Under the pieces are notes generated by a model. It worked only from the letters and a program-made list of their open reading frames with translations, was not told the DNA's origin and did no database searches. Shown here one piece after another: positions 4,579 to 28,904 of a stretch of DNA of 33,930 bases; positions within the stretch are counted from its first letter, which is position 1, and every line of letters starts with the position of its first letter. The stretch is from Cystobacterineae bacterium (GTDB lineage: Bacteria > Myxococcota > Myxococcia > Myxococcales > Myxococcaceae), in assembly GCA_009782175.1 (NCBI GenBank), contig WRKR01000035.1:1-33930 (forward strand), read 5' to 3'. The position numbers were made by a program, and so were the translations under genes.

Positions 4579-4591
4579 GAGTTTCTCCCAA

Positions 4592-5155: not shown

Positions 5156-5156
5156 G

Positions 5157-5873: not shown

Positions 5874-7669
5874 AACTCATTCCCCAGGTGAGCATCGGCA
5901 TCATCTCTCTCCATAATTTCGCGTGCGGGGGCCAAGGCCGCATCCATAGCAAAGGCCGGCTCAAAGTCTTTTTGTTGAAGTCTTCTGTCATAAGAGGGGC
6001 GGAATTTCTGCATGGTGTCATAAACGGGGCGCCAAGCTGTTTGTCCGAGGCCGCAATGGCTGGAGGTTTTGAGGAGTTGGTGGAGGCGGGAGAGTTCATT
6101 CATCTCATAGCTGGTGGCTTTGCCGTCGGCAATTTTGTCCAGGAGGTTGCACAGCAAGGTGGTGCCCACGCGGCAAGGCGTGCAGAAGCCGCAGCTTTCG
6201 TGTTTGAAGAAGTGCGTAAAGTTTCTGGCCACCTCAAACATATCCCTGTTGTTGCCAAACACCATGAGGGCCCCCGAGGTAGAAACATCTTCAAACGCAA
6301 TTTTGCGTCCAAACTCATGCCGAGCGAGGCAAGTCCCCGCGGCGCCGCCGACTTGGACGGCCATGGCGTTGCGTGCGCCGCAATCCTCGAGTATTTTGGA
6401 AATGCGCACGCCAAAAGGGTACTCATAAATGCCGGGGGCGTCGCAGTCTCCGGAAATGGACAACAGTTTGGTTCCCGTAGAGAGTTTGGTGCCCAGGCCT
6501 TTATACCAGGCGCCGCCGTTTTGGGCGATGAGGGTTGCTTTGGCGAGGGTTTCGACATTGTTGACGACGGTGGGTTGGCCCAAATAGCCATGGGTAGCGG
6601 GGAAGGGGGGGCGGATACGGGGCCTGCCGGGTTTGCCCTCGAGGGACTCAATGAGGGCTGTCTCTTCACCGCAGACATAGGCGCCTGCGCCCATGTGTAT
6701 TTCAATGTCAAAGTCAAACCCCTTTTGCCCCAGAATGTTTTTGCCCAGCAACTGGGCTTTGCGTCTGGCCTCCAGTGTGGCTTGGAGTTTTTCCAGCATA
6801 TAGCGGTATTCAGCGCGCAAATAGAGGAGGCCCTTGGAGGCGCCGATGACGAAGCCGGCAATGCTCATCCCCTCAAAGAGGAGCTCTGCGTATGAGTTGA
6901 GGAGGACTCTGTCCTTAAAAGTCCCCGGCTCTCCCTCGTCGGCATTGCAAACCACATAGCGTGTTTCACCGGGTGCATTTCTGCAAGCCTCCCATTTAAC
7001 CCCCGTCGTAAAACCTGCACCGCCGCGTCCACGGAAGTTGGAGGTTTTCATTTCAGCCAGCATGCCCTGGGGGCCAAGCTCTATGGCGCGTTGGAGTGCC
7101 TGGCCGTTGGTGAGTTCTGCAGAAAGCAGCACATCCTTGCGGCGAATGTTGTCTTCCACGCTAAAAAACGCTGAAGGCCACTGCTCCAGGGGTGTTTGGT
7201 TTTTTATCAGCGTGCAAATGGCGTCAACGCGCTGGGAAGAAAGCCGGGGGATGGCATGGTTGTTGACGAGGAGGGCAGGGCCTTGGTCGCACATGCCTGT
7301 GCAGGAGGTGGTATCTATACTGACAAGCCCGTCCCCGGAAACCTGCCCTTGGGAGAGGCCCAGCCTGGAGAGCATGCGCGCAAGCAAAGCCGTGTTGCCT
7401 TGCATGCGGTCCGTCACATTGTCCGAGAAGAGAATGCGGTATTTGCCGCAGGGGCTGTCATAGAAGAAAGCATAAAACTCTATAACGGATTGAATTTGTG
7501 TGCGGGCCAAAGCGAGGGCTTCGGAAATATAATCCACCGCCCATTTGGGGATGAAGCCCAGGCGCTCCTGGGTTTCCCGGAGAATTTGCATGAGGTGGTG
7601 TGGGTTGCGTAAATAGCGCTCCAAAATAGGCTCCAACACACCTTCGACGGAAGAATTGACAAGACTCAA
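5870..7669 (-). CDS. hoxF: NAD-reducing hydrogenase diaphorase subunit HoxF (NuoE-NuoF fusion)
   Basis: This is the flavin subunit that exchanges electrons with NAD(H). The chosen start is TTG at 7669, with GGGAG six bases upstream, giving 599 aa, almost the length of Ralstonia HoxF; the frame is open to 7747 but without a better start. Residues 10-150 are a NuoE-like thioredoxin fold. Of its usual four cluster cysteines only C123 and C127 (SCTGMCDQGP) are in place; the first pair is replaced in LFSDNVTDRMQG. The NuoF part has the FMN/NAD motifs GRGGAGFTTGVKWE (214-227), EGEPGTFKDR (245-254) and GAGAYVCGEETALIESLEG (327-345). A [4Fe-4S] site is formed by C493, C496, C499 (SCGFCTPC) and C539. 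No separate hoxE is present. First gene of the operon. Confidence 0.95.
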   Translation of the reverse strand: MSLVNSSVEGVLEPILERYLRNPHHLMQILRETQERLGFIPKWAVDYISEALALARTQIQSVIEFYAFFYDSPCGKYRILFSDNVTDRMQGNTALLARMLSRLGLSQGQVSGDGLVSIDTTSCTGMCDQGPALLVNNHAIPRLSSQRVDAICTLIKNQTPLEQWPSAFFSVEDNIRRKDVLLSAELTNGQALQRAIELGPQGMLAEMKTSNFRGRGGAGFTTGVKWEACRNAPGETRYVVCNADEGEPGTFKDRVLLNSYAELLFEGMSIAGFVIGASKGLLYLRAEYRYMLEKLQATLEARRKAQLLGKNILGQKGFDFDIEIHMGAGAYVCGEETALIESLEGKPGRPRIRPPFPATHGYLGQPTVVNNVETLAKATLIAQNGGAWYKGLGTKLSTGTKLLSISGDCDAPGIYEYPFGVRISKILEDCGARNAMAVQVGGAAGTCLARHEFGRKIAFEDVSTSGALMVFGNNRDMFEVARNFTHFFKHESCGFCTPCRVGTTLLCNLLDKIADGKATSYEMNELSRLHQLLKTSSHCGLGQTAWRPVYDTMQKFRPSYDRRLQQKDFEPAFAMDAALAPAREIMERDDADAHLGNEL

Positions 7670-7687
7670 AATACGCTCCCTCTTTAA

Positions 7688-7715
7688 AAGTGACAGCCCA
7701 CCCAAGCGACAGCCC
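7688..7715. promoter_or_regulatory. Direct repeat in hox leader
   Basis: AAGTGACAGCCC (7688-7699) and AAGCGACAGCCC (7704-7715) form a direct repeat with one mismatch and a 16-base period. They lie between the candidate promoter and the hoxF start. Next to them CGGTG/CACCG can form a small hairpin. They could bind a regulator; this is inference only. Confidence 0.3.
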
Positions 7716-7737
7716 CGGTGAAAATATCCACCGAGGT

Positions 7738-7764
7738 AGAATAACAAACTCCACCAGCTGTCAA
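7738..7764 (-). promoter_or_regulatory. Candidate sigma-70 promoter of hoxFUYHW
   Basis: On the minus strand a perfect TTGACA -35 box (7764-7759) is followed after 15 bases by TATTCT (7743-7738), four of six matches to TATAAT. The spacer is shorter than the ideal 17. A start near 7731 would leave a leader of about 60 bases before the hoxF TTG. Confidence 0.45.
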
Positions 7765-8810: not shown

Positions 8811-8873
8811 AACCCCTACCCTATGACGAAATGAGAGAAGAGTAATGTAGCTCTTTTGGAGGAGAACCTGGCT

Positions 8874-10478
8874 ATGCATCGTTTCTGGCTTCTGCTTATG
8901 GCTGTTTTAATGGCTGCGCTCAGCGCATGCCCCAGTGAGGCCCCAGACAAACCCGGCTATTGGAAACGTGCGCTTAACAAAGCCAGCAGCCACACGGAGA
9001 AAACCACCATCCTCAGCAACCTCCGCAAACAAAAACCTCAGGACGCGGCCTTCTTGCCGCTGCTGCATACCATCCTCACTGAGGAAAAGTCTGCTGACGT
9101 CAAAGTCGCCGCCGTCCGCATTCTCATGGACATGAAAAACCCTGCCTCGCTGGGGCCTTTGCAAAATACGCTCAACCTCAAAGCCAGCGGTGCTTATGCC
9201 AGAGATTTGAACAGAGCCATTGCTGAAGCCCTCGTCGCCTTCAAAGCCCCTGAAACGGAGCCTGCCTTCCTCGAAATGCTCAAACACAGGGACAGCTTTA
9301 CGCTTTTTCCTGCCATTGAAGGCCTGGGGCAGTTGCGCAGCAAACAAGCGGTGCCTTTTTTATTGGAAATGCTTGAGGAGAACACCGCACAACCCAATGA
9401 GCAGGCCCGGTATATTATGACGCTGGGACAAATTGCGGACCCCAGCGCCATCCCCGCGCTGGAGAAAAAACTCTTCACCTTCCCCTTTGAGCAGGATGCC
9501 GCCTTGGCCTTGTTCCGCATTGGCAAACCGGCTGCGGATGCCATGCTGCTTATTCTCCAGGAGAAAAACACCAGCCTGAAAGCCTGGGCTTTGAGCAACA
9601 AAACACCCATTCCTCCTGGCGCCTTAATGGCCCTTGCCACCCGCGTCCTGGGGGAAATGCAGGAGATGCGCGCAGAAAACATCCTCATTTCCAAGTTGAT
9701 GCCTGCAACGGAAAAAAACAAATGGCTGAGGCAACAGGCCATTAGCGCGCTGGGGCGCATGCGCTCCACCAAAGCCACAGAAACTTTAAGCCGCGTGGTT
9801 TTGGAGCCAGAGGTTGTGCTGCGGGGCCTGTGCGCTGTGGCCCTGGCACAAATAGGTGACAAAAGCGCCTTGGCCTCCTTGAAAAAAGCGACCTCCACGG
9901 GTGACTTTGACGCGCGGCTTGGCGCCATGCTGGGCATTGCCCTCTTGGGAGGCGAGGCTGAATTGGATTTTTTTAACAAACAAATGGACAATGAGCACAT
10001 CCTCTTCAGGAAAGACCAGGCTCAACTCAAAGAGCGCTGTGGCAACCACCCCTCCTGCAATGAGCGTATTAAACGCCTCGGGGAAGATCGCCGGCTTGCG
10101 CTCAACCAACTCAAGGACATTCTCGAAACCAGCAGCAAATGCGGAGAAAAAGAGCCCTGCTGGGCTGAAGTTTTGGCGGATAGCAACGCCCACAGCTTTA
10201 AACGCCAGCGCGCAGCCTTCTTCCTGGGGCGAAGCAAAAACCCGCAGCACATTGAAGCCCTGGGCAAACAACTGGCGGATGAGGACTTGGAGTTGAGGGT
10301 AAGCACCCTGTTGAGCATTTCCTGGCTTGTGCGCGATGAGCCTTTGGCCGCCAGCGAGGCCAAAAAGCTTGTGGAGCCCTTGCAACAACAATTGGAAGAG
10401 GAGCGCAGCAGCATACAAAAACGCGGCGCCCGGGATGAAATGTTGCGCGTGCTGTGGACGCTGCAAAACCTTCCTTAG
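8874..10478 (+). CDS. HEAT-repeat lipoprotein
   Basis: The product is 534 aa from the ATG at 8874, preceded by GGAGGAG. A short signal peptide ends in the lipobox LSAC, making C19 the lipidated residue. The rest is an alpha-solenoid of HEAT-like repeats across the whole protein (for example ADVKVAAVRILMDM, ASAIPALEKKL-type helices, LRGLCAVALAQIGDKSALA and RLGAMLGIALLGG). A four-cysteine insert lies around residues 390-430 (CGNHPSC, then SKCGEKEPC), possibly two disulfides. The role is probably a periplasmic binding scaffold. Its stop codon overlaps that of the convergent gene at 10475. Confidence 0.85.
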   Translation: MHRFWLLLMAVLMAALSACPSEAPDKPGYWKRALNKASSHTEKTTILSNLRKQKPQDAAFLPLLHTILTEEKSADVKVAAVRILMDMKNPASLGPLQNTLNLKASGAYARDLNRAIAEALVAFKAPETEPAFLEMLKHRDSFTLFPAIEGLGQLRSKQAVPFLLEMLEENTAQPNEQARYIMTLGQIADPSAIPALEKKLFTFPFEQDAALALFRIGKPAADAMLLILQEKNTSLKAWALSNKTPIPPGALMALATRVLGEMQEMRAENILISKLMPATEKNKWLRQQAISALGRMRSTKATETLSRVVLEPEVVLRGLCAVALAQIGDKSALASLKKATSTGDFDARLGAMLGIALLGGEAELDFFNKQMDNEHILFRKDQAQLKERCGNHPSCNERIKRLGEDRRLALNQLKDILETSSKCGEKEPCWAEVLADSNAHSFKRQRAAFFLGRSKNPQHIEALGKQLADEDLELRVSTLLSISWLVRDEPLAASEAKKLVEPLQQQLEEERSSIQKRGARDEMLRVLWTLQNLP

Positions 10479-11944
10479 ACCGGTTTCTTCCCCGGGCTTA
10501 AGCGTTTTTCTTTTTCCATGGCCTCCTGAAAGCCACTGGGCAACAAACTGAAAGGCAAAAGCTTCCCCAGGGCCAGCAGCAAAAACAGCCCTCCCGGTGC
10601 CGCAAAAATGGCCAGCGCGGGGACCACTTTTGCTAGGTTGATCAGCTCCTCCTTCAGCTTTCGCTTTTGAAGCTGGCTCAGCTTCTGCCCACTGACGGCC
10701 TTCGCCAACAAGAGGGAAGCTTCTCCTGTTTGCCTCAGCTGTATGCCCAAAGCCCTATAGGCTTTTCCAAACTGCCTTTGTATGTTGAAAAAAAATTCCT
10801 CCCCAAACCAACGCGCGCCTTCGCCTATAAAAAAAATGTCGACCTGTGTTTTGTTTTCTGCAAAAAACTCCATAACCTCCAGCTGGAGCTGGTTAACTTC
10901 CCCTGGCGAAAACTTCAGCTGAGCCCCCAAAGCCCATACCCAGTCCACAGGGGAAGCGTTTTCCACAACCGCCACCGCATGGGGCTGGGTATGCTCTGGC
11001 AACACCGTGCCCGCCACCACAGAGGCCAAGGGCGCCAAAGGCTCTTGGGGAAGCTCCCCTTCCAACAAAAGCTTGGTGCGCGAGGCCTCGCGCTCCTCTA
11101 ACAAAGAGGCCAAAAATACCTGAAACAAAACGAAGTGCCGTATGTTGTGCGTTTTTAACTCTGAAAGCAAAGCTTCCATAGGAAGGGGTTGGTGCATGCT
11201 TTGCCATACAAAACGCTGCACCAACGCGGCGGAGGTTGGAGGCAAACGCAGGCTTTTCAGCTGACGCAAAATGGAGCGGCGCGCATAGGGCTTGGGCAAA
11301 CGTTGGTGGCATAAAATGCCGCAAAACACCATGGCCAAAACAGCCTTCTGTCTTTGTATCAGCGCGCGTTGTCTGGCAATGCGTCGCGGCGCAAAGGTGC
11401 CCTTGGAAAAATAGTCATAGGAGAGGCGCGCAAAAAACTGTGCATTGGCCCATATGCCCACATTGTGCAGCAGCAAGGCAAAGCGGCCATCCTGGGAGAG
11501 TACAGGAAACAACGCCTGCAAAGCAGAGCGCAGTTGCTTGTGTATGGGCTTGGCCATGGGCTTGGCGCTTTTTAAAAGCCGCTCCACCTCCCGGGCCTCT
11601 TTCCATAAGTCACAATACACAAGCGCCAAAGCATAAAGCTCTCGCTTGTCGACCCGTGTCCTCCCCGCAAGCTCTGCAATGTCCAAAGCCATGAGGAAAA
11701 ACAATTTTATTTCTGCATAAGCCAAACGAAAAACAGGCGCCCCCCCTGCCAAGGCTTCCCCTCTGGGCGTGCCAAACAAAAGCCCTTGGTGGCGCAGCCC
11801 ACTCTTCACATAAACCCGCACCCGCGCAAAACCCGCAGGCAAAGCCTTCGCCTCCACCACAGCAGGGTTCCTCTCTTGGGTTTTGTGCTCATCCAACGCA
11901 CGCTGAATGCAGCTGTGCAACCAGTCTGCCGCTCTCTTTTCCAT
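10475..11944 (-). CDS. Protein with C-terminal LETM1-like domain
   Basis: The product is 489 aa from the ATG at 11944, two bases after the stop of the preceding gene. Residues 1-400 are mostly helical with no family I recognise. Residues 403-472 match the pattern of the LETM1 ribosome-binding-like domain by eye: LRQTGEASLLLAKAVSG, a basic LQKRKLKEELINLAK helix, then VPALAIFAAPGG, LLLALGKLLP and FSLLPSGF. In mitochondrial LETM1 this region follows a membrane helix; bacterial LETM1-related proteins are known but their role is unclear. The tail is basic (EKEKRLSPGKKPV). It is probably cotranscribed with the two lipoprotein genes upstream. It ends on the opposite strand of the HEAT gene with overlapping stop codons. 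Confidence 0.7.
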   Translation of the reverse strand: MEKRAADWLHSCIQRALDEHKTQERNPAVVEAKALPAGFARVRVYVKSGLRHQGLLFGTPRGEALAGGAPVFRLAYAEIKLFFLMALDIAELAGRTRVDKRELYALALVYCDLWKEAREVERLLKSAKPMAKPIHKQLRSALQALFPVLSQDGRFALLLHNVGIWANAQFFARLSYDYFSKGTFAPRRIARQRALIQRQKAVLAMVFCGILCHQRLPKPYARRSILRQLKSLRLPPTSAALVQRFVWQSMHQPLPMEALLSELKTHNIRHFVLFQVFLASLLEEREASRTKLLLEGELPQEPLAPLASVVAGTVLPEHTQPHAVAVVENASPVDWVWALGAQLKFSPGEVNQLQLEVMEFFAENKTQVDIFFIGEGARWFGEEFFFNIQRQFGKAYRALGIQLRQTGEASLLLAKAVSGQKLSQLQKRKLKEELINLAKVVPALAIFAAPGGLFLLLALGKLLPFSLLPSGFQEAMEKEKRLSPGKKPV

Positions 11945-11946
11945 GG

Positions 11947-13398
11947 CTAGGGTGGGCTGCAAACAAAGGGTTGCCCGGGCCCGTCCGCATATGCCTCTAC
12001 GCTTCTTGCGAGGTGCCCCCCATCCGTTGCGGGGCTCGTCTGGTCCCCCCTGCCGGGGCCAAAGGCCAAGGCAATGGCTTGGGTGGCGGCCACCTCATCC
12101 AAATGCTCAAAAAGGTAGTCCACGCGGTTGTCCTGCCATCGGCCGTCTGTGTTGCTCAACCCCATGTGCCCCATGGGTATTTGCCACCACACCAGAGGCA
12201 ATTTCACCGTGTCGGAAATGGTTTTTCCCCATAAAAAAGTGCGGTGGAAATTCGGAATGCTTTGGTTGTTGGTGTCATACCAGCGGTCTGCCTGCCCCTC
12301 TCGCACGGCATAATAACCGGAGTCTCTGTCTGAAAACTCCACCACCATAAAATCGGCCTCGTTGGCCCCCAGCCTGTTGAGGTATTCCCCTGTGCTTTGG
12401 CCCAGGCTTTCAGCATTCAACGGTTGGCCCCGGTTAATGTCGCCTAAACCCGTGGCCCAGCCCGAGGCCATCAACCCAATGCTTGCCTCTGGTGCATAAA
12501 GGCGTGCCATATGCACCATGCACCTTCCAAAACCTGCAAAATTGTTCTCCATCTCAGGGCAATCTTCCCTGCCTGCCGTGCGCACGTCCACAGACAAATG
12601 CTCCGGCCCGTTTCTTCCTGCACGGCTTTGTTGTGCATAGCCCCATAAATCAGGCTCAATGTGCAGCATGACTGCTTTGCCGCTTTGCTGTTGGTATTCG
12701 TTCACCACCCCCAGCATAAAACGCCAGTCATCCAAATAGTCGCGAATGTTGTTGGTGTTGGCCAACCTGCTTGCCAATTGCTCAGGCCCCTCATTGCGCT
12801 CAAATATGGTGGCATAGAAGACATAATACACCACCATGGGCACTTGGCCTGCCGCTTCACTTGAAGCAAACAACTGGCGCAAGTGGCCACCTGCTCTCCC
12901 GCCGCTCCAACAACCCCACCAGTTTACATTGTTTCGGGGGCAGTTGCTGCACTCGGTGCAAGGCCCTCCGGGGAGTGCGCGCTCTGCCAAATAGAGGTAT
13001 TTGAGGCCATAGGGAATGCCTTGTATATAGCGCTCAAAGTTTTCCCAGCCTCCTGAGGTTGAAATCCCCATCAACAGGCGGTCGGTACCCAACTTTTCTG
13101 TCAACGCCCTTTGGGCTTTGCATACGTCCGTGGAAGGCTGCGGTTGGAAGGGAGGGCCCCCCGTGGGAGGCGTGGGAGGCCAGGGGAGGGTGCTTTCGCA
13201 AATGGCCTCTACACAGCCCTCCTCTGCCTCTGCCTCTGCTGTGCACAACCTCTCCACGCAAACAGCCATGCCATTGCAAGAGGCCAACACACCTATGCCG
13301 CTCAGGCATAACCCTATGCCACTCCATAGGGCAGCAAACCCCCATGCCTTCCATGGGGGCCAGCTCACAAGCCCTGGGTGCTTTTCAAAACCCCTCAT
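11947..13398 (-). CDS. Secreted TIM-barrel-like lipoprotein, paralogue 2
   Basis: The product is 483 aa from the ATG at 13398 (MRGFEKHPG); an ATG at 13428 is also possible and neither has a strong ribosome-binding site. The hydrophobic segment ends in LASC, a good lipobox, followed by a Cys-rich spacer (NGMAVC, RLC, EEGC, AIC) and a Pro-rich linker. The main domain has the pattern of a (beta/alpha)8 glycoside-hydrolase-like fold: LLMGISTSGGW, VPMVVYYVFY, VMLHIEPDLWGY, IGLMASGWATG, MVVEFSDRDSGYY and LPLVWWQIPMGHMG. The acids in HIEPDLWG and VVEFSDRD sit at strand ends where catalytic residues are usual. Family assignment is inference. It is about 60% identical by eye to 13431-14825, its tandem copy. 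Confidence 0.75.
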   Translation of the reverse strand: MRGFEKHPGLVSWPPWKAWGFAALWSGIGLCLSGIGVLASCNGMAVCVERLCTAEAEAEEGCVEAICESTLPWPPTPPTGGPPFQPQPSTDVCKAQRALTEKLGTDRLLMGISTSGGWENFERYIQGIPYGLKYLYLAERALPGGPCTECSNCPRNNVNWWGCWSGGRAGGHLRQLFASSEAAGQVPMVVYYVFYATIFERNEGPEQLASRLANTNNIRDYLDDWRFMLGVVNEYQQQSGKAVMLHIEPDLWGYAQQSRAGRNGPEHLSVDVRTAGREDCPEMENNFAGFGRCMVHMARLYAPEASIGLMASGWATGLGDINRGQPLNAESLGQSTGEYLNRLGANEADFMVVEFSDRDSGYYAVREGQADRWYDTNNQSIPNFHRTFLWGKTISDTVKLPLVWWQIPMGHMGLSNTDGRWQDNRVDYLFEHLDEVAATQAIALAFGPGRGDQTSPATDGGHLARSVEAYADGPGQPFVCSPP

Positions 13399-13430
13399 AT
13401 TCTGCAACACTCTCTTCCGGGCCTTCATAT

Positions 13431-14825
13431 TTAGCGTTGGCAAACCCACGGCTGTCCGGAGGTTGCGGCATAGGTGCGTACTCTGTTGGCGAGGTTTCCG
13501 CCATCGGTTTCAGGGCTTGTCTGGTTGCAGGCACCCGGGCCAAAGGCCAGGGCAACGGCCTGGGTTGCGGCCACCTCGTCTAAGTGCTCCAGGAGGTAGT
13601 CCACGCGGTTGTCTTGCCACGCGCCTGTGCATCTGCCGTCATCCCTATTGCCCAAGCCCATGTGTCCCATGGGTATTTGCCACCACACCAAAGGCAATTT
13701 CACCGTGTCCGCCAGCGTCTTGCCCCACAAAAAAGTGCGGTGGAAATTCGGGAAGGTCCGGTTGTTCGGATCATACCAGCGGGTGGACTGTCCTTGGGCT
13801 GCATAATAACCCGCGTCGCGGTCTGAAAACTCTACAACCAAAAAGTCAGCCAGGTTGGCACCCAACTCATTCATATATTCGCCGGTGCTCCGCGCTATGC
13901 CTTCAACATCCAAACGGGGGTCCGTGCTCAGGTTAATATCTCCCATCCCTGTGGCCCAACCTGAGGCCATAAGTCCAATGGTCGCCTGGGGCGCATAGCG
14001 GCGGGCCATGCGGACCATGCACTCTCCGAAGCCTGCAAAGTTGTTTTCCTGCTCGGGACAATCCGGCTCTGCTGCCCACTGCACATTTGTCGGCAAATCC
14101 CTGGGGCTCCTCCTTCCGGGGCCACCTTGTTGGGCAAAACCCCACAAGTCCGGCTCTATATGAATCATCACCGGCTTGCCGCTTTGTTGCTGGTAGTCAT
14201 TCACCACCCCCAGGGTGAAGCGCCAGTCCCTCAAATAGTCGCGGACATTGCTGTCATTCAACAACCCCCCAGGCAAGTGTCCGGCGCCCTCGGCAATGGT
14301 GCGGAAAACGGTATAATAAACCACCATCGGAATTTGGCCCGCCGCTTCACTCGACTGCAGCAAATTGCGCAAATGACGGCCCGGCCTCTCGCCGGGCTGG
14401 TGGTTCCAACACCCCCACCAGCTCGCATCTTGCCTTCTGGGGCAGTTGTCACAAGAGGCGGTGCAGTTGCTAAAGTCTCCGGGCTCCAGGGCACGGCTGG
14501 CCAAATAGAGGTATTTGAGGCCATAGGGGACGCCGCGTATAGCATTCTCATAATTATGGGCTCCCCCTTCTGTCATAATGCCCATTAACACGCGGTTTGT
14601 GCCCAGCTTCGCTGCCAACCTCTCCTGGGCTTCGCATACATCCTCGGAAGGTTTAGGGTTAAATGGAGGCGGCGGCACATAGGCTGTTCCATTGCACGCT
14701 GCCCCAACGCAGGCAACAACGGTTGCAGCGACGCAGGTTGCGCCCGCGCAAACAGCTGTGCCGCTGCAAGCCGTTTTCAACAACAATGCCAAGCTACAAA
14801 GCCATGCTTTTGGTGTGTTCTGCAT
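13431..14825 (-). CDS. Secreted TIM-barrel-like lipoprotein, paralogue 1
   Basis: The product is 464 aa from the ATG at 14825, with a GGGGG stretch 5-6 bases upstream. The signal sequence ends LLLKTAC-SG; Lys at -3 makes a poor lipobox, but C20 aligns with the lipobox Cys of the paralogue. An unusual spacer (20-50) has Cys every few residues. Residues 77-464 form the TIM-barrel-like domain. Its key elements are HIEPDLWG (222-229), MASGWATG (286-293), VVEFSDRDAGYY (330-341) and PLVWWQIPMGHMG (378-390). Two cysteine pairs at 121-140 (CTASCDNCP, WWGCW) are shared with the paralogue. A polysaccharide or peptidoglycan target is plausible but not shown. Confidence 0.75.
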   Translation of the reverse strand: MQNTPKAWLCSLALLLKTACSGTAVCAGATCVAATVVACVGAACNGTAYVPPPPFNPKPSEDVCEAQERLAAKLGTNRVLMGIMTEGGAHNYENAIRGVPYGLKYLYLASRALEPGDFSNCTASCDNCPRRQDASWWGCWNHQPGERPGRHLRNLLQSSEAAGQIPMVVYYTVFRTIAEGAGHLPGGLLNDSNVRDYLRDWRFTLGVVNDYQQQSGKPVMIHIEPDLWGFAQQGGPGRRSPRDLPTNVQWAAEPDCPEQENNFAGFGECMVRMARRYAPQATIGLMASGWATGMGDINLSTDPRLDVEGIARSTGEYMNELGANLADFLVVEFSDRDAGYYAAQGQSTRWYDPNNRTFPNFHRTFLWGKTLADTVKLPLVWWQIPMGHMGLGNRDDGRCTGAWQDNRVDYLLEHLDEVAATQAVALAFGPGACNQTSPETDGGNLANRVRTYAATSGQPWVCQR

Positions 14826-14855
14826 AAAAACCCCCAATATGTTTGCCAGAGCGGT

Positions 14856-20497: not shown

Positions 20498-20688
20498 AAA
20501 CGAATTTCTTGCTCTTGGAATTCCCACATGGCCACCAAGTCCTCAAAGGTTTACAAAATTTTGAGGAAGTTGTCGAATTTTGCTCCCTTTTGCCCACAAA
20601 ATACCCGCCCGCTAAACCTGCAGAGGCCCCATGGAGCCACTTCACATTCTGCTTAAGCTTCCTGCGGCAAACAGGCTATGCTCCCCAG

Positions 20689-21546
20689 GTGCCCTCCTTT
20701 CAGCTTAGTTTAGAAATAGATGAAACCCATGCAGAATTCCTCAGTGAGTCGCTTTATGAGCAGGGTTGTTTGGGAGAGGAGTGGCGCGAAACACAGCTGA
20801 TGGCCATGCCGGGAGTTTCTGCCCCTCCGCCCGGGAAAATATATATTGTTTCCTTTTTTGAGACGCTGAAGGCCGCCCAAGCTGCCCTGGAAGCGGCACA
20901 AAGCCAATGGAATGTTCGGCTTATTGAGTTGGTTGAAACAGAAGACAAAGCCTGGGATATGGCATGGAGGGAGCGGGTTTCATCCACGGAAACCCAGCAC
21001 CTCTGGGTGGGCCCCCCATGGCTCAAACCCTCTGCGGGCAAACAAGCCCTCTATATTGAGCCTAAAATGGCTTTTGGGACGGGAGAGCACCCCTCCACGC
21101 GGCTATGCCTTGAAGAGATAGAGGCCTTTTGCACCCACTTCCCCGGCTGCAGCCTCTTGGATGTGGGCACAGGCACCGGTATTTTGGGAATGGCGGCCTG
21201 CAAACTGGGCGCAGACCATGCCCTGGGCATAGACAATGACTTTTCGGTATTCCCTTATGTCCGGGAAAACCTCATGCTAAATGAAATTAGCAACATGCAA
21301 ATTTCCAATGCGCAGCTCCACCACATAGAAGGACAATTTGACATTGTTGTTGCCAACATTTTCGCTAATGCCCTGGAGGAGTTGGCCGAAGCCCTCTGCA
21401 AAAAAACGCGGAAATATCTTGTCCTTTCAGGTATTCTGCGGCCTCAATCGGCACAGTTGGAAATGCGGTTTTCGCAGCTTGGAATGCGCTTGAGTGCCAA
21501 GCGCGCGTTTGAAGAATGGGTTTGTTTGGGTTTTAAAACACAGTGA
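20689..21546 (+). CDS. prmA: Ribosomal protein L11 methyltransferase
   Basis: PrmA trimethylates ribosomal protein L11. The frame is open from 20509, but the chosen start is the GTG at 20689. From there VPSFQLSLEIDETHAEFLS lines up with the start of E. coli PrmA (MPWIQLKLNTTGANAEDLS) and gives 285 aa, the normal size. No good ribosome-binding site precedes either start. The substrate/SAM domain has IEPKMAFGTGEHPSTRLCL, motif I LDVGTGTGILGMAA, the acidic residue in GIDND and VVANIFANAL in place of the usual NIL. It overlaps rsmE by 4 bases (GTGA), a frequent rRNA/r-protein methylation pair. Divergent from the coiled-coil gene. Confidence 0.88.
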   Translation: MPSFQLSLEIDETHAEFLSESLYEQGCLGEEWRETQLMAMPGVSAPPPGKIYIVSFFETLKAAQAALEAAQSQWNVRLIELVETEDKAWDMAWRERVSSTETQHLWVGPPWLKPSAGKQALYIEPKMAFGTGEHPSTRLCLEEIEAFCTHFPGCSLLDVGTGTGILGMAACKLGADHALGIDNDFSVFPYVRENLMLNEISNMQISNAQLHHIEGQFDIVVANIFANALEELAEALCKKTRKYLVLSGILRPQSAQLEMRFSQLGMRLSAKRAFEEWVCLGFKTQ

Positions 21547-22271
21547 AACGGATTTATGTCCCTCATGCACAGCTTGGCGCCTCTCATTGCCTTCAGGGGA
21601 ATGCGCACCACCATTTGGTGAATGTACTTCGCTCTCGCCCAGGGGACTGTGTGGAAGTATTCGACGGAGGAGGGAAAAGTTTTTTGGCCCGCATCGAAAA
21701 ACTCACTTCCAAAGAGGTTTGCCTCGCCCTTGTTGAGGAGCGTGTGCATGCCGAGGCTGTGCCCATGTGCTTGCTGCATGCGCTGCTCCGGCAGCCCTCG
21801 CGCTTTGAGTGGCTGCTGCAGAAAGCCACCGAGTTGGGCGTTGCGGAGTTTTGGCCACTCCTCACAGAGCGTACACAACAAGCCCACGCTGCCTCTCCAA
21901 ACCGCCAAAGCCGGTGGCAAAAAATTATAGAGGAAGCCGCTCGCCAATCCGCGCGAAACCATGTGCCTCAACTGCAGCCCTGTCTCTCGCTCAGCGAGGC
22001 ATTGAGGCTGCAACCCAAGGGTACTCAACTCTTGCTGCTCAATGAGACAGAAACACAAATTCTTTTAAGAGAAGCTTTGGTCCTGGGGGAAGCTCAGGCT
22101 AAACTGGCCGTGTTGGTGGGGCCCGAAGGCGGTTGGACACCGGGTGAGGTGGCATTGGCCCAGCAACATGGCGCCATTTCTGTTGGGTTGGGGCCGTCTA
22201 TTTTAAAATCAGAAACGGCTGGGTTAGCCGTGTTAAGTATTCTCCAATTTGTGGCCGGACAACTGGGATAA
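21543..22271 (+). CDS. rsmE: 16S rRNA m3U1498 methyltransferase RsmE
   Basis: The product is 242 aa, typical for RsmE, a SPOUT-fold enzyme that methylates U1498 of 16S rRNA. The N-terminal PUA-like part has HHHLVNVLRSRPGD. The SPOUT part has QKATELGV, SRWQKIIEEAARQSAR, LVGPEGGWTPGE and the knot motif LGPSILKSETAGLAVL. The GTG start at 21543 overlaps the prmA TGA, so translation is coupled. It is followed after 51 bases by the RDD gene, probably on the same message. Confidence 0.96.
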   Translation: MKRIYVPHAQLGASHCLQGNAHHHLVNVLRSRPGDCVEVFDGGGKSFLARIEKLTSKEVCLALVEERVHAEAVPMCLLHALLRQPSRFEWLLQKATELGVAEFWPLLTERTQQAHAASPNRQSRWQKIIEEAARQSARNHVPQLQPCLSLSEALRLQPKGTQLLLLNETETQILLREALVLGEAQAKLAVLVGPEGGWTPGEVALAQQHGAISVGLGPSILKSETAGLAVLSILQFVAGQLG

Positions 22272-22322
22272 AAGAAAAATTAGAAAATTGGGATGAAATA
22301 GCCCTCTAACTGGGAAGGCGAA

Positions 22323-24116
22323 TTGAACGTGAGCAACACCGACGAAAAAGAAAAACAGTCGAGTCGCTTGGAGGATAGCTTGACAGAGCACCCCTCTGAG
22401 CTGCTGAAAAAAGAACTCGTACCCGAAGCAGCACCCCTCATGGAGGAGCTTCCTTCAAAGGAAGCCTCTCCTTTTTTGTCAGCCCTCTCACCCAAAGCCC
22501 CAGAGGTCGCTGCGCCACGCCCCACCCCCAACTATGCTACGCCTCAGCGCAAAACTGTTTTCTTCGGGACTTCTGAAATTGCTGCCCTCGAGGAAGAGTT
22601 TAAAGCCGTCAGCTCCCCCAAGCCCCCTACCATTCCTTCTCAACGCGTCGAGGCACGCCCTCTGTATTCCCCCCTTTCACCTCTTTCGCCTCCTTTGCCT
22701 CCTGCTCCTCCTGCCGCTGAAATTTTCATGAGGTCCGCCACAACCGAAAACACAAACCCAAACGTTTTGGGAATTCCCTCTGAAAACCTGTTGTCAACGG
22801 AAGACCATGGCGACATTGCAGACCCTTCTGAAACACTCAGCGCACTGCTGGACGAAGTTTTTTCAGAAGACGTTCCTGACTTTGAAGCCCTCTTCCACTC
22901 GCAAAGCCCTCTTGCACCCAGCTCTCTTGCACCTGCACCAGCAGCCCGGCTTGGCGCCCCACCTTCACCTGAAAAACCTCCCGCCCCCGCATTCCCTCAA
23001 GCACCCCCGTGGGACCCCATTGCAACATTGGTTGCTCAAAAAGCACAAGCCTCAACAACACCCGCTGATAAGCCGCCCATACAGCCGCCCGCACAGCCTC
23101 CTGCGCCCGAGTTTGTCATTCCCGGCATCCGCAATACACCCATGCCAGAGCCTTCCGTTGCGCTGTTTGATGAGCCTACGGAAATACATATGGAAGAGTT
23201 GCTGACCACCACACAAACAGAAATGCTGTCTGAAACCAGCTCCGCTCCTCCTGAGCCCCTCGTTGGGCCAGATGAAGCTCAGGCTGCTTCCCTCTTGCAA
23301 CAGGCCTTCGCCTCGTCCCTAGCAACACCTCAAGAGTCAGAAACAGCTCCTCTCTTTTCTGAAATGGACAGGCTTGAGCTCAACACAGACGAAATGGTTT
23401 CTGAGCTCCAAAGAACTTTAGAACAAGCCAGCCTGAGCGTTGAAACCACAGCAGAGCCCCCTGAGGCTGAGGCACTTCAAAAACTTTCCGCGCTCCTCGA
23501 AACCCACGCTCCTCCCCTCTCGCTGGCAGAAAAAGAAGAAGCCGCCATGCGGGCTGCTCAACCCATTTTCCAGCTGAGCTCCCCACCCAGCTTCGTAGAG
23601 CCTACAAGCCGGCCCGCACCGGCCATGGCGCCCATATTCCACCCCCTTGAGAAAACACATGAGGCTGTGCCGCCTCCATTATTCCGGCTGCTCGGAGCCT
23701 TCACAACGGATGTTGTGCTCCTGTGCCTGGCCGCGCTGGGCATGCTGTGGGCCGCCAATGCAACCGCAGATCCCAAGCAAAGCACGCTCTCTTGGCTCAG
23801 CAACGCCGCTTCCTGGAAAATATTGGGGCCCACAACACTCGCCTTGCTGGCTTTGCTCGTCGTCGCCTATGCAACTTTCTTCGCTATAGCCTGGAATGGC
23901 GCCTCACCAGGACGAAAACTCCTGGGCTTAAGGCTTGTGGACAAAGAGGGGCAACCCGTCGGCTTCCTCAAAGCTTTCTTCAGAGGCCTCTTCTCCCTCC
24001 TCTCTTTCGGCTTGGCACTCTCAGGCTTCTGGTGGGCCCTCATTGACAAACGCCGACAAACCTTCCATGACAAATGCACAGGTACATTTGTTGTCCACGT
24101 CCAACCCAAGCCGTAG
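22323..24116 (+). CDS. RDD-family membrane protein with very long disordered N-terminus
   Basis: The product is 597 aa. The start TTG at 22323 has GGAAGG a few bases upstream. Residues 1-450 are Pro-, Glu-, Ala- and Ser-rich with almost no predicted structure (PLSPPLPPAPPAAE, QPPAQPPAPE), plus several acidic short helices. Residues 451-597 are an RDD domain: RLLGAFTTD (R455, D463), TM about 463-482, TM about 503-522, GASPGRKLLGLRLVD, a TM around 552-575 and FHDKCTGTFVV at the end. RDD proteins are inner-membrane proteins, often small transporters or anchors; a 450-residue cytoplasmic-type arm is unusual. It is followed after 12 bases by the 899-aa protein gene. Confidence 0.8.
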   Translation: MNVSNTDEKEKQSSRLEDSLTEHPSELLKKELVPEAAPLMEELPSKEASPFLSALSPKAPEVAAPRPTPNYATPQRKTVFFGTSEIAALEEEFKAVSSPKPPTIPSQRVEARPLYSPLSPLSPPLPPAPPAAEIFMRSATTENTNPNVLGIPSENLLSTEDHGDIADPSETLSALLDEVFSEDVPDFEALFHSQSPLAPSSLAPAPAARLGAPPSPEKPPAPAFPQAPPWDPIATLVAQKAQASTTPADKPPIQPPAQPPAPEFVIPGIRNTPMPEPSVALFDEPTEIHMEELLTTTQTEMLSETSSAPPEPLVGPDEAQAASLLQQAFASSLATPQESETAPLFSEMDRLELNTDEMVSELQRTLEQASLSVETTAEPPEAEALQKLSALLETHAPPLSLAEKEEAAMRAAQPIFQLSSPPSFVEPTSRPAPAMAPIFHPLEKTHEAVPPPLFRLLGAFTTDVVLLCLAALGMLWAANATADPKQSTLSWLSNAASWKILGPTTLALLALLVVAYATFFAIAWNGASPGRKLLGLRLVDKEGQPVGFLKAFFRGLFSLLSFGLALSGFWWALIDKRRQTFHDKCTGTFVVHVQPKP

Positions 24117-24128
24117 ATGCAGTAGCCC

Positions 24129-26828
24129 ATGACTGACAAGCTCCTCCAAGCCCTCTCCCAGTTAGGAGTTCAAGACGCTTCATTGGCCACGCTGCCTTCC
24201 CAAGCCATACATGAGGGCTGGGGAATGGACTCCTCCCTCCTGGACAAAGGACTGCTGAATGAAGAAGAGATGTTGGAAGCCTTGTCCGCAGCAACACAAC
24301 TTAAACCTGTTAACCTCAACCACTTCTATCCTGACTTCTCCTTGGCAAAATTGCTCCTCCCTGAGTGGTGCCAACAAAACTGCTGCGTCCCCCTGTGCGA
24401 AGAAGACGAAGCCCTCCATGTCGCCGTCGGCTATCCACCCAAACTCGAAGCTCTGGAGGAATTCAGCCTGCGCGTCGGACGCAAACTGCTGCCGTGGATA
24501 GCCTTAGAATGCCGCATTCAACAATGGCTCGCCACACTCTATGAGGTGGCCATTTCCAAACATACCTTCGAGCTTTTAGAAAAACTCTCCCAAACAACAC
24601 CAACTCCTGAGAGCGCTCCCCCTCCTCCCGCAGAGCCTAAAACCTCTCCAACACAGCAGGCTGAAGAGCTTGAAAGCGCCACTGAAAGCAGCGCCCCGCA
24701 GGTTGCAGAGCTTGAAAGCGCCGCTGAAAACGGCGACTCGCAGGTTGAAGGGCTTGAAAGCGCCACTGAAAACGGCGACTCGCAGGCTGAAGAGCTTGAA
24801 AGCGCCGCTGAACATGGCGACTCGCAGGTTGCAGAGCTTGAAAGCACCACTGAAAACGGCGACCCGCAGGCTGAAGGGCTTGAAAGCGCCACTGAAAACG
24901 GCGACGCGCAGGTTGCAGAGCTTGAAAGCGCCACTGAAAACGGCGACCCGCAGGTTGCAAAGCTTGAAAGCGCCGCTGAAAACGGCGATCCGCAGGTTGC
25001 AGAGCTTGAAAGCGCCACTGAACATGGCGACGCGCAGGTTGCAGAGCTTGAAAGCGCCACTGAAAACGGCGACGCGCAGGTTGAAGGGCTTGAAAGCGCC
25101 GCTGAACATGGCGCCCCGCAGGTTGAAGGGCTTTCGCTCTCAGCAGCCTCGTTGCCCCACCACAAGTCCAAGCTTCCTTGGGCGCCCAGCGAAGCAATAC
25201 AAGCCCAGCTGGGCAAAACCTCCTTTATGGGCTCACGTGTCTTCAAAGACTTTTTTGTGAAAATGAAGCAACAACTCCTGCCCACACCTGAAAAACCTCC
25301 CGAGGACAACACAACCTTCTCGGCCATTGATGAGGAAATTCCTCTGGAAACCTTGTTTGAGGAGTGCCTTGCAAACTTAAGCCCCTCACAACGCCCTCAA
25401 GAAAGTGCTCCACCTCCTCTTCCTCCGCTTGAGGAAAAAAAGCTTCCACACACCCCTTTGCCTCAGGCCCCCAACAACGCTGCTCCTGTCTGGACACTTG
25501 GCGAGGCCACAGAGCAACTTCGGCGGGCGCAAACAAACCGAGACAAGTTGACGAGCGTCCTCCTGCATTTCGGGCTTTCTGTTTTTGAGTTTGTGGGGTT
25601 GTTTTCTGTTATCCACGGGAAAGCGCAGGGCTTCTCTTGTGCAGGGAAAGGCACGGTGCCAGGCTTCTTGCGCACACAAATAAACCTGGCCTCGCCAGGC
25701 CTCTTCCACTCCGTCGCACAAACCCTCTCCGCTTATTTCGGGCCCCCGCCCCAGGAGCCCAGGCTTCAACGCTTCCTCTTGGACATTCAACGCAAGCCTC
25801 GCTCCATTTTCGTCTATCCCATTGCCGTAGGCGATAAACTGGTCGCCCTCTTCTATGGAGACTCTGGGCTGCACTCCCTGCAACAAAAACAATTTACTGA
25901 GTTTACGCTGTTTTGCCAACAACTCCCCGCCGCCTTCCATGAGTTGTTGTGGGTGCGCCGCAAATATACCACCCCCCTCGCTGAGCTGGACGAAACAGCA
26001 CGGGAAGAGCGCCTCAGCTATAACCTGAAGCAGCTGCTGGAGGCCGATGCCGCCGCACAACAGTCCGCCCTGGAAATGCTCGAGCAAACACCAGAGGCTT
26101 CTGCCAAAGCCCTCATCCAACGCTTCCCCGGCCCCCCAGCTAGCCCACCTCATGCCTTGGGCCCCATTGAACGCGCCCTCCTCTACTTGGGGGAGGCCGG
26201 CGCTCAGGCCTTGCTGCCTCTGCTCTCCTCAGAAGACGAAAAGCTGCGCTGCGCCTCATTGCAACTCGCAGGGGCATTCGCCTCCCCTCTCCTCTTGGAG
26301 CCTGTGCTGATGGCTTTGTTGGATGCTAACCCCACCATTGCCTCAACAGCACGCGAAACCTTGCCCCACTTCAAAACCCTCAATGAGTGGCCTCATGCCC
26401 TTCGCCGCATTCAACACTCCCTCCACTTCAGAGACCCATTGCGGCGTACCCTGGCGGCCAAAGCCGTCGCCGCTGCCAAAGACAGAGGCAGCATAGAAAC
26501 CCTCATCCAATGGACGGGGGATGTGGATGCCTGGGTAGCCGAAACGGCCGCCTGGGCTTTGCAACAACTCTCCTGCATTCAACTCGGCCCTTCTCCTCAC
26601 CTGTGGAACAGGTGGTGGTCCCGCGCCCAATATAAGAGAAGAGCACAATGGCTCGTCCTGGCACTCGAGTCCGAAAACTTTGAGCAACGCCAACAAGCCA
26701 TAGCCGAGCTTTCTGCCGCCACCGGGGAGAGCTTCAACTTTATGGCGGATGCCCCAGAGGAAAAACGCCTGCTCCCCCTCCAACGCTGGCAACAATTCGT
26801 GGAACAAAACCCCCATTTTGAGCTTTAG
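24129..26828 (+). CDS. GspE-N-like / 14-residue repeat / GAF-like / HEAT protein
   Basis: The product is 899 aa. Residues 1-145 match the GspE/PilB N-terminal (MshEN-like) domain pattern: SLLDKGLLNEEEMLEAL, LPEWCQQNCCVPL, EEDEALHVAVGYP and WIALECRIQQWLATLYEV. No ATPase domain follows. Residues 177-330 are eleven exact 14-residue repeats of type QVAELESATENGDP. Residues 331-455 are a Pro-rich linker. Residues about 455-620 look GAF-like (LTSVLLHFGLSVFEFVGLF, SIFVYPIAVGDKLVALFYG). Residues about 650-890 are HEAT repeats. It may be a sensor or scaffold; MshEN domains can bind c-di-GMP in other proteins, but whether this one does is not known. It is cotranscribed with the RDD gene. Confidence 0.8.
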   Translation: MTDKLLQALSQLGVQDASLATLPSQAIHEGWGMDSSLLDKGLLNEEEMLEALSAATQLKPVNLNHFYPDFSLAKLLLPEWCQQNCCVPLCEEDEALHVAVGYPPKLEALEEFSLRVGRKLLPWIALECRIQQWLATLYEVAISKHTFELLEKLSQTTPTPESAPPPPAEPKTSPTQQAEELESATESSAPQVAELESAAENGDSQVEGLESATENGDSQAEELESAAEHGDSQVAELESTTENGDPQAEGLESATENGDAQVAELESATENGDPQVAKLESAAENGDPQVAELESATEHGDAQVAELESATENGDAQVEGLESAAEHGAPQVEGLSLSAASLPHHKSKLPWAPSEAIQAQLGKTSFMGSRVFKDFFVKMKQQLLPTPEKPPEDNTTFSAIDEEIPLETLFEECLANLSPSQRPQESAPPPLPPLEEKKLPHTPLPQAPNNAAPVWTLGEATEQLRRAQTNRDKLTSVLLHFGLSVFEFVGLFSVIHGKAQGFSCAGKGTVPGFLRTQINLASPGLFHSVAQTLSAYFGPPPQEPRLQRFLLDIQRKPRSIFVYPIAVGDKLVALFYGDSGLHSLQQKQFTEFTLFCQQLPAAFHELLWVRRKYTTPLAELDETAREERLSYNLKQLLEADAAAQQSALEMLEQTPEASAKALIQRFPGPPASPPHALGPIERALLYLGEAGAQALLPLLSSEDEKLRCASLQLAGAFASPLLLEPVLMALLDANPTIASTARETLPHFKTLNEWPHALRRIQHSLHFRDPLRRTLAAKAVAAAKDRGSIETLIQWTGDVDAWVAETAAWALQQLSCIQLGPSPHLWNRWWSRAQYKRRAQWLVLALESENFEQRQQAIAELSAATGESFNFMADAPEEKRLLPLQRWQQFVEQNPHFEL
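24657..25118. repeat. Eleven 42-bp tandem repeats
   Basis: Eleven units of 42 bases lie head to tail, each starting CAG-GTT or CAG-GCT and containing GAGCTTGAAAGCGCC. They encode 14-residue repeats differing mainly at positions 2-4, 8, 10-11 and 13-14. A partial twelfth copy (QVEGL) follows. As 42 is a multiple of 3, copy-number change alters length without breaking the frame. All three antisense frames stay open here too, which is an artefact of the repeat. Confidence 0.95.
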
Positions 26829-26829
26829 G

Positions 26830-26863
26830 CCTCAATGTTTTTCAAACCCTGAGGTTTTTCTTT
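26830..26863 (+). terminator. Hairpin with T tract after the repeat protein
   Basis: CCTCA (26830-26834) can pair with TGAGG (26850-26854), and AAACC-CTGA-GGTTT is an alternative inner stem; both lead into TTTTTC. It lies 2 bases after the stop codon in the 85-base gap before the response-regulator gene. The stem is short, so it may attenuate rather than stop transcription. Confidence 0.4.
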
Positions 26864-26913
26864 GCTAAGTTGTTATTGCTTTTTTTTCGCCTCTTCCTCG
26901 TTAGAGAAAGTTT

Positions 26914-27690
26914 ATGTCCCCCCATGCTCCCAGCACGCTACACCATATTCTCGTTGCGGAAGATGAAAGCGTTACCCGTATGCTGTTTATTACGCAACTG
27001 AGCAAGCTGGGCTTTTCGGTCGTCGCCGTGGAAAATGGAACCCAAGCTTGGAAAACCCTCCAAAAGGAAGACGCTCCCAGGTTGGTTATTTTGGACTGGA
27101 GCATGCCCGGCATTGACGGCCCCACCCTCTGCAGCCTCATCCGTAAACAAAAAATATACCGCTATATCCTCCTCGTGACGGCGCGCTCTCGCAAAGAGGA
27201 TGTTATTTCAGGCTTGGAAGCCGGCGCGGATGATTTTCTCACAAAGCCCGTGCACATCGGCGAGTTCCACGCACGCCTGCGCGTCGGTCAGCGCCTCCTG
27301 GAGCTTGAAGAAACTTTGGCTTCTAAAATTAACCAACTCAGCGCTGCCCTGGAGCATGTGCAACAGCTGCAAGGCATGCTGCCCATTTGCATGCATTGCA
27401 AACGCATTAGAAATAATCAGCAAATTTGGGAGCGCATTGAAACGTATATTGAGCAGCGCTCAGACGCTACGTTCAGCCATGCGCTGTGCAATGAGTGCCT
27501 GGAAACCCATTATCCCCCAGAAAACACCTACACGCCTGACAACAAAAAAACCGAAAATAAAAACCCCGAAAAAAAACCTCCTGAACTTAAAACAGCGGAA
27601 AACAAAAGCCTCGACAAAAAAACCTCAGCCCTGAAAACACCAGCCCCCATACAAATGCCGTCTATGCCTCGAAAGAGAAAACGCTCATGA
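26914..27690 (+). CDS. Response regulator with C-terminal Cys-motif module
   Basis: The product is 258 aa from ATG 26914. Residues 10-128 form a REC domain: acidic pair E16/D17, phosphoacceptor D61 (VILDWSMPG), T89 (LLVTARS) and K111 (FLTKPV). A coiled linker (128-153) leads to a C-terminal module with C159 and C162 (MLPICMHCKRIRNN) and C192 and C195 (FSHALCNECLETHYP). This arrangement matches the PICxxCKxIR...HGxCxxC module seen at the ends of many two-component proteins; it probably binds a metal. The tail (204-258) is Lys/Pro-rich and disordered. No DNA-binding output domain is present. It overlaps the next gene by 4 bases (ATGA). Confidence 0.9.
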   Translation: MSPHAPSTLHHILVAEDESVTRMLFITQLSKLGFSVVAVENGTQAWKTLQKEDAPRLVILDWSMPGIDGPTLCSLIRKQKIYRYILLVTARSRKEDVISGLEAGADDFLTKPVHIGEFHARLRVGQRLLELEETLASKINQLSAALEHVQQLQGMLPICMHCKRIRNNQQIWERIETYIEQRSDATFSHALCNECLETHYPPENTYTPDNKKTENKNPEKKPPELKTAENKSLDKKTSALKTPAPIQMPSMPRKRKRS

Positions 27691-28244
27691 GCCTATATGA
27701 TGATGACGACAACAGCGGATTTGTAGGAAAACGCAGAAAAACCTGGCGCGAAATTGATGCACACCGAAACAGAAGCCACCACACCTCCAGACAAGAGACG
27801 AAGGAAAGCTCAAAAATAGCCCGCAGCCCCTCCTATGAAAAATATAAAAAGGCCGCTGACGCTATTTTTAGCCAAGGGGAGCTGCCCCAAGCCCTGGCTG
27901 AGCAATGGGATGCCCAAGGTACACGCAAAGCCTTCAGAGAAAATATTAAAAAACTCATGCAGCCCAAGGACAGAGCCTCGTGGATAAAAGGCGTGCTCCA
28001 GTTTGTAGAGCAATATGACGCGTTGCCTGATGACATTTATTTTTTGGACTCCCTGTTGGACCACCCCAAAGAAAGCATTGTCTCCAAAGCCTTGTGCCAC
28101 TTGGAGCACTGGCTTGAAACAGGCAAAGCCTTCCCCAAATGCCCACCCAGCCTGGAGCAAAGGCTTAAATCCATTGAGTTGGGCTCCTTGGATGAGCAAC
28201 TCCAAGCACAAGCCAAACGCTTGCGCGAAAAATTGCGCCCTTAA
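27687..28244 (+). CDS. Hypothetical protein coupled to response regulator
   Basis: The product is 185 aa, starting with ATG in a 4-base overlap with the response-regulator stop. The N-terminus is acidic then basic (SLYDDDDNSGFVGKRRKTW), with WREIDAHRNRS, and the rest is helical, with a Cys-poor basic end (QAKRLREKLRP). The acidic-basic start followed by WREID looks like a conserved motif, but I cannot name a family. The tight coupling suggests it works with the REC protein. Confidence 0.7.
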   Translation: MSLYDDDDNSGFVGKRRKTWREIDAHRNRSHHTSRQETKESSKIARSPSYEKYKKAADAIFSQGELPQALAEQWDAQGTRKAFRENIKKLMQPKDRASWIKGVLQFVEQYDALPDDIYFLDSLLDHPKESIVSKALCHLEHWLETGKAFPKCPPSLEQRLKSIELGSLDEQLQAQAKRLREKLRP

Positions 28245-28253
28245 CCCCCTCTC

Positions 28254-28904
28254 ATGCTGATAACACGCCTCTCCATCCCCTCTGTACATGGACAGCTGCA
28301 GGCACTGCTGTCCTCACCCCTTATACCCCAGGCCCGGGCCTTGGTTTGCCACCTCCACCCTGGCTTCGGCGGCCATATGCACAACAATACCACCTACCGC
28401 ATGGCCAAAGCGTGGACTTTGGCCCATGTGGCTGCCTTGCGCTTTAACTTTAGCAGCGTCGGCAGCCAGGCCACAAACACTGAGGAGGGCACCGCAGAGT
28501 TGGAAGACGCTCAAAGCGCTTTGGCGTTTCTTCAAACACAACAGCCTGCACTCCCTTTGCTCTGCAGCGGCTTCTCCTTCGGCGCGAGAACGGCCCTCGC
28601 CTTGGCGCTGCGGGAGCCTCGCATAAAACGCGTGCTGGCCGTAGGCGTGGGCGTGGACTTTTTTGATATGCGCTTTGTTGCTCAACTGAAAACACCCGTC
28701 GCCTTCGTCCATGCGGAAAAGGATGAGTTTGGAAAACTCCAAAACCTTCAGGCCCTCGCAAAGCAAGTGCAAGCCCCCAACAAACTCTTCATCGTCCCCC
28801 AGGCCTCACACCTCTTCACCCACCACATGCAAAGCCTCGAGGAAAAGCTGGCCCAGGCCATTGCCTGGCTTATGGCTTGCCCGCCTCCCTTAGAAACGGC
28901 CTAG
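28254..28904 (+). CDS. Alpha/beta hydrolase (dienelactone-hydrolase-like)
   Basis: The product is 216 aa. The oxyanion/early motif HLHPGFGGHMHNNTTYRM is followed by ALRFNFSSVG, both typical of small esterase-like alpha/beta hydrolases. The predicted triad is S108 in the nucleophile elbow GFSFGA, D157 in HAEKDEFG and H186 in ASHLF. It lies nine bases after the preceding gene. The stop codon overlaps that of the convergent cinA (CTAG, read as TAG on both strands). The substrate is unknown; it is the last gene of the plus-strand cluster. Confidence 0.85.
   Translation: MLITRLSIPSVHGQLQALLSSPLIPQARALVCHLHPGFGGHMHNNTTYRMAKAWTLAHVAALRFNFSSVGSQATNTEEGTAELEDAQSALAFLQTQQPALPLLCSGFSFGARTALALALREPRIKRVLAVGVGVDFFDMRFVAQLKTPVAFVHAEKDEFGKLQNLQALAKQVQAPNKLFIVPQASHLFTHHMQSLEEKLAQAIAWLMACPPPLETA

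Follow-up and report, generated by a model that had tools for sequence, protein, structure and literature searches.

An RDD membrane protein gene and the gene directly downstream of it, which encodes an 899-residue MshEN-linker-GAF-HEAT protein, make up a conserved two-gene unit in the Myxococcales. The pair was examined in a 33,930-nucleotide stretch of DNA from a Cystobacterineae bacterium of the family Myxococcaceae (GCA_009782175.1, contig WRKR01000035.1), hereafter the window. There it is followed by a gene for a receiver protein with a C-terminal cysteine module (Cys-REC) and by a gene for a 185-residue protein (P185). The initial annotation had joined all four genes in one membrane/scaffold/REC cluster. 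The conserved unit is the pair and not a four-gene system. With moderate confidence, we read it as a scaffold/sensor pair tethered to the membrane, whose two-component neighbors differ by lineage and beside which P185 and its hydrolase stand as something separate.

The four ORFs are co-oriented and closely spaced, as had been claimed. The RDD gene is separated from the 899-aa gene by 12 bp and the latter from Cys-REC by 85 bp, while Cys-REC and P185 overlap by 4 bp. The edges of the cluster were drawn too narrowly, as the co-directional run extends over seven genes, prmA-rsmE-RDD-MshEN/HEAT-REC-P185-hydrolase (20509-28904), with the hydrolase start 9 bp past the P185 end. NCBIfam holds no specific family for the RDD, 899-aa, REC or P185 gene.

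Table 1. Features of the co-directional run and its tandem array in the window.
Feature	Coordinates	Strand	Evidence and remarks
prmA (ribosomal protein L11 methyltransferase)	20509..21546	+	Pfam PrmA E 2.5e-48; first in run; conserved upstream landmark
rsmE-type 16S rRNA methyltransferase	21543..22271	+	Pfam Methyltrans_RNA E 2.3e-45, PUA_4; conserved upstream landmark
RDD membrane protein, 597 aa	22323..24116	+	Pfam RDD E 6e-21 at residues 452-586; conserved partner 1
MshEN-disordered linker-GAF-HEAT protein, 899 aa	24129..26828	+	Conserved partner 2
42-bp (14-residue) in-frame tandem array, 11.4 copies, in linker of 899-aa protein	24656..25133	+	TRF score 704
Cys-REC, 258 aa: receiver with complete acceptor residues and C-terminal CxxC...CxxC module	26914..27690	+	Pfam Response_reg E 1.1e-25; lineage-specific neighbor
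P185, 185 aa, with small helical (ARM/HEAT-like) C-terminal half	27687..28244	+	No Pfam family; single-copy Myxococcota core protein, no conserved cluster member
Alpha/beta-hydrolase	28254..28904	+	Pfam Abhydrolase_11, DLH; last in run; follows P185 in other genera too

The source genome is a 2.70-Mb assembly of 65 contigs that is 99.95% complete. Its genus is represented by three genomes (G000, G001 and G002; G001 is WQTM01000037.1, isolate Co191P4bin16) of 2.1-2.7 Mb, compared with 3.9-13.8 Mb for the other family genomes searched, which looks like strong genome reduction within the Myxococcaceae. Genes in relatives were called with tblastn and a simple caller based on composition instead of a trained gene finder. 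Since many of the relatives are fragmented assemblies, a gene missing from a contig is not necessarily missing from the genome. Elsewhere in the window, minus-strand genes at 3082-7747 encode the large subunit of a nickel-dependent hydrogenase, an Fe-S subunit resembling HoxU and a fused diaphorase resembling HoxE/F. Together they have the appearance of an NAD-linked hydrogenase, here in a member of the Myxococcaceae. Another protein with HEAT/PBS-lyase repeats, 540 aa long (HEAT_2 E 6e-33), is encoded on the plus strand at 8856-10478, followed on the minus strand by three overlapping ORFs in a row, each of 468-500 aa and with no Pfam match (10475-14837).

The RDD gene lies directly upstream of the MshEN match, at a distance of at most 310 bp, in 46/48 loci with both ends readable. 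This adjacency spans the order and reaches Anaeromyxobacter-type and Vulgatibacter-type genomes. Homologues of the 899-aa protein were found in 52/60 genomes searched, and its C-terminal half was matched in 159/195 genomes of the phylum (E <= 1e-20). The window genus has retained the pair despite its small genomes. Adjacency across the order together with presence in a genus of strongly reduced genomes suggests that the pair probably does something basic. Literature searches for the MshEN/GAF/HEAT architecture and for the gene pair found nothing relevant, and the pair is apparently unstudied. The scaffold gene is present in Myxococcus xanthus (locus L114), so the function of the pair can be tested in that organism.

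The RDD protein combines a C-terminal RDD domain (PF06271, 75.6 bits against a cut-off of 24.1) with a proline-rich, disordered-type segment. Residues 1-445 are 66% P/E/S/A/K/Q/T and contain no cysteine, in keeping with the roughly 450 disordered residues first described. The RDD proteins of five other loci (L065, L068, L069, L052 and L071) begin with a CxxC...CxxC segment resembling a zinc ribbon, which is absent from the window protein.

The GspE-N-like, GAF-like and HEAT parts first attributed to the 899-aa protein were all recovered. MshEN (GspE-N, PF05157) was matched at residues 58-139 (E 1e-10; 42 bits, cut-off 23.1) and in five relatives at 34.9-52.5 bits. The MshEN part, approximately residues 1-146, is followed by a low-complexity linker that is 67% P/E/S/A/K/Q/T. 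The repeat that was also noted does exist as the 42-bp array in this linker; it occurs in no relative of the alignment. Residues 437-899 were modeled with AlphaFold2 using 29 homologues (mean pLDDT 85.8). The predicted structure confirmed the GAF domain, as the first domain of the model has a GAF fold (VIA-align Z 16.3, rmsd 3.5 over 156 residues versus 3trc), with phytochrome and other GAF chains ranking close behind 3trc. The remainder is modeled as a solenoid of helical pairs. HEAT_2 falls just below threshold in the window protein (26.7 versus 27.7 bits) and exceeds it in 5/5 relatives scanned. Because of these matches in relatives, the sequence-profile matches of the region to HEAT-type proteins in the PDB and the helical pairs of the model, we count the 899-aa protein as a HEAT-repeat protein.

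The MshEN region aligns with the N terminus of PilB (TIGR02538, E 1.8e-7). Pfam gave no match to the T2SSE ATPase domain in the 899-aa protein or in five relatives, indicating that it is not a PilB/GspE ATPase. A GspE-N domain orphaned from its ATPase had initially been considered unusual. We counted 4 MshEN matches in the window genome and 3-19 in relatives from other genera, and many of these lie in frames too short for an ATPase, so there was little cause for surprise. M. xanthus has been credited with up to 22 MshEN genes (PMC5013675) and with 17 MshEN proteins (PMC8844925). Within this order, MshEN domains without an ATPase are common.

What follows the pair varies with lineage. In Myxococcus, Corallococcus and Archangium relatives the genes behind it encode a histidine kinase whose N-terminal part has hydrophobic segments and, in most cases, an NtrC-type regulator. 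Among 70 non-duplicate loci, a kinase gene was found within 6 kb downstream in 36 and within 400 bp on the same strand in 27, and both the kinase and the NtrC-type gene are present in 32. In the window lineage the two-component neighbor is Cys-REC. The two kinds of neighbor are mutually exclusive, with the kinase and Cys-REC together at 0/70 loci. The presence of two-component genes behind the pair in two lineages suggests a signaling context. Map position had suggested that the Myxococcus kinase/NtrC pair might be Nla28S/Nla28. This identity was unsupported, as a search of L114 recovered neither the nla28 half-sites nor the sigma-54 site described in PMC9765219, although strain differences may play a part. 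A record titled Comamonas sp. KCTC 72670 (L128, BNCN01000002.1) has a myxobacterial prmA-rsmE-RDD-HEAT-kinase-NtrC locus and is probably mislabeled.

Two-component genes are not the only downstream neighbors. An acetyl-CoA carboxylase carboxyltransferase gene takes their place within 6 kb in nine loci, and a glycosyltransferase or PLP enzyme gene lies downstream of the pair in further loci, which suggests that the downstream gene may be incidental. Upstream, prmA and rsmE precede the pair in most loci where the sequence extends far enough, and large-genome relatives often encode an 88-aa Transgly_assoc protein between rsmE and RDD. The variable downstream gene and the conserved methyltransferase genes would both fit a housekeeping or envelope unit unrelated to signaling, next to which two-component genes lie by chance. 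We consider this possible, if on the unlikely side, because the close same-strand kinase genes and the 32 loci with both kinase and NtrC-type genes argue against it, and because GAF domains are usually sensory. A bolder extension of the signaling reading, in which the pair would be an undescribed, phylum-wide myxobacterial membrane signaling platform whose downstream effector genes were swapped in evolution between kinase/NtrC and a metal-module REC, is doubtful and is put forward tentatively.

The initial description of Cys-REC as a receiver with a cysteine module and no DNA-binding domain held up. The REC domain occupies residues 12-122 (E 1.1e-25) and is followed by the module, and Pfam found no DNA-binding domain in the protein. 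The acceptor D61, T89 and K111 are invariant in 12 REC sequences, as is the CxxC...FSH..CxxC module. Relatives carry the module at other places too, within open frames of 57-594 aa, so it is of wider use. Orthologues of Cys-REC (E <= 1e-35) are found in 15/96 family genomes, belonging to six genera. Nine genomes have REC and the 899-aa gene on one contig, and in 9/9 REC is downstream on the same strand, directly adjacent to the pair in four genomes (three genera) and at a distance of 5.3-16.3 kb in the five others. In several genera a large gene on the opposite strand (1716-1780 aa; for example L043:4001-9151 and L083:6450-11792) separates the HEAT gene from Cys-REC, with no Pfam match where scanned. 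A weak terminator-shaped hairpin between the 899-aa gene and REC folds no better than shuffled sequence (z -0.66) and was rejected as a terminator.

P185 is a core gene of the myxobacteria. It was found in 133/195 phylum genomes (E <= 1e-6), and almost all Myxococcaceae genomes gave a single match. Its distance from the 899-aa gene is bimodal among 38 genomes with both on one contig, 0.9-20 kb in nine and at least 465 kb in 29. By sequence profile it resembles designed armadillo repeats (E 3.6e-9), a match that points to a helical repeat and nothing more. Its model is weak (mean pLDDT 68.7), with confident helices in the C-terminal half only, and a fold search with it gave no significant match (best E 0.14).

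An alpha/beta-hydrolase gene lies next to P185 in five genera from three families. The hydrolase follows P185 in the window genus and in G012, G022 and G037, where it belongs to the same hydrolase family as in the window, and in the Vulgatibacter-type genome G040, where it is a UPF0227 protein; the adjacency was observed at loci L086, L089, L092 and L039. P185 is thus more widely coupled to the hydrolase, and its position after REC is local. The best explanation is that P185 and the hydrolase are a separate unit, brought next to the pair here through gene loss or rearrangement. The locus thus illustrates how a small genome can show what looks like an operon made of genes that are distant from one another in relatives. 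Most Myxococcaceae examined have a co-directional gene of 244-282 aa without a Pfam match just upstream of P185 (for example L080:6602-7375, L085:7852-8643 and L089:8140-8877). One such protein gave no match in the window genome, in a search run without a positive control.

These distributions bear on whether all four genes encode one dedicated complex of membrane protein, scaffold, REC and partner. In the window the four stand side by side in one orientation, and HEAT, REC and P185 occur together in L039, which is of the same genus. REC keeps its orientation 0.1-16 kb downstream of HEAT in the nine genomes mentioned above, in three of which it adjoins P185 convergently. However, the four genes do not stay adjacent across relatives, the check proposed by the initial annotation itself: REC is missing from 81/96 family genomes and P185 is at least 465 kb from HEAT in 29/38. 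On these counts a conserved REC-P185 operon was also rejected. The two genes are adjacent and co-directional in the window genus only and convergent in one other genus. Even in the sister genome, where the REC and P185 matches are 72 bp apart, the 4-bp overlap is apparently not kept. A four-gene complex is therefore improbable. The overlap that made P185 look like a small partner of REC is real in the window, but such a partnership is not supported. Of the proposed membrane-anchored complex, the pairing of a membrane protein with a multi-domain scaffold is supported for RDD and MshEN/GAF/HEAT, found side by side across the order, and REC and P185 fail as members.

The MshEN domain raises the question of c-di-GMP binding. 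In MshE the nucleotide is contacted by an R, a Q and the glycine of RLG (PMC5013675). The MshEN of the 899-aa protein was scored in 24 aligned sequences against the two 24-residue c-di-GMP motifs defined for MshE (PMC5013675). The R, G and Q of the second motif are missing in 24/24, as is the G of the first motif; in the window protein the R of the first motif is gone as well. In large-genome relatives the R and L at the start of the first motif are mostly kept, and the final Q in some. With key contacts missing in every sequence, the protein is probably not a c-di-GMP receptor. That it binds c-di-GMP through MshEN and relays the signal to HEAT-bound partners, as the PF05157 match and the partly kept first motif might suggest, is highly improbable and was rejected on the loss of motif residues in all 24 sequences.

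The reading as a membrane-tethered scaffold/sensor pair suggests the following mechanism. The RDD protein, located in the inner membrane and carrying a long disordered segment, would anchor the MshEN-linker-GAF-HEAT protein at the membrane through physical contact. The GAF domain may sense a small molecule or a conformational state. The HEAT solenoid, together with an MshEN fold that has lost its c-di-GMP contacts, would recruit other proteins. Output would be carried by the adjacent two-component genes, kinase and NtrC in Myxococcus, Corallococcus and Archangium relatives, while the window lineage would use Cys-REC. A point against this reading is that conserved neighbors can reflect shared ancestry instead of function.

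Each part of the locus resembles a known system and departs from it. Like other RDD family membrane proteins (PF06271), the window protein has a C-terminal RDD domain, but about 445 disordered-type residues precede it. The 899-aa protein shares with orphan MshEN proteins outside the secretion and pilus ATPases (PMC5013675) an N-terminal PF05157 fold with no ATPase behind it. It differs from them in that a long linker joins its MshEN to GAF and HEAT, and in the loss of the second c-di-GMP motif from all aligned sequences. The N terminus of PilB aligns with its MshEN region, but it has no match to the ATPase domain of the PilB/GspE assembly ATPases. Finally, response regulators with the same REC and C-terminal CxxC...CxxC module occur in several relatives, whereas the one in the window sits beside the scaffold pair.
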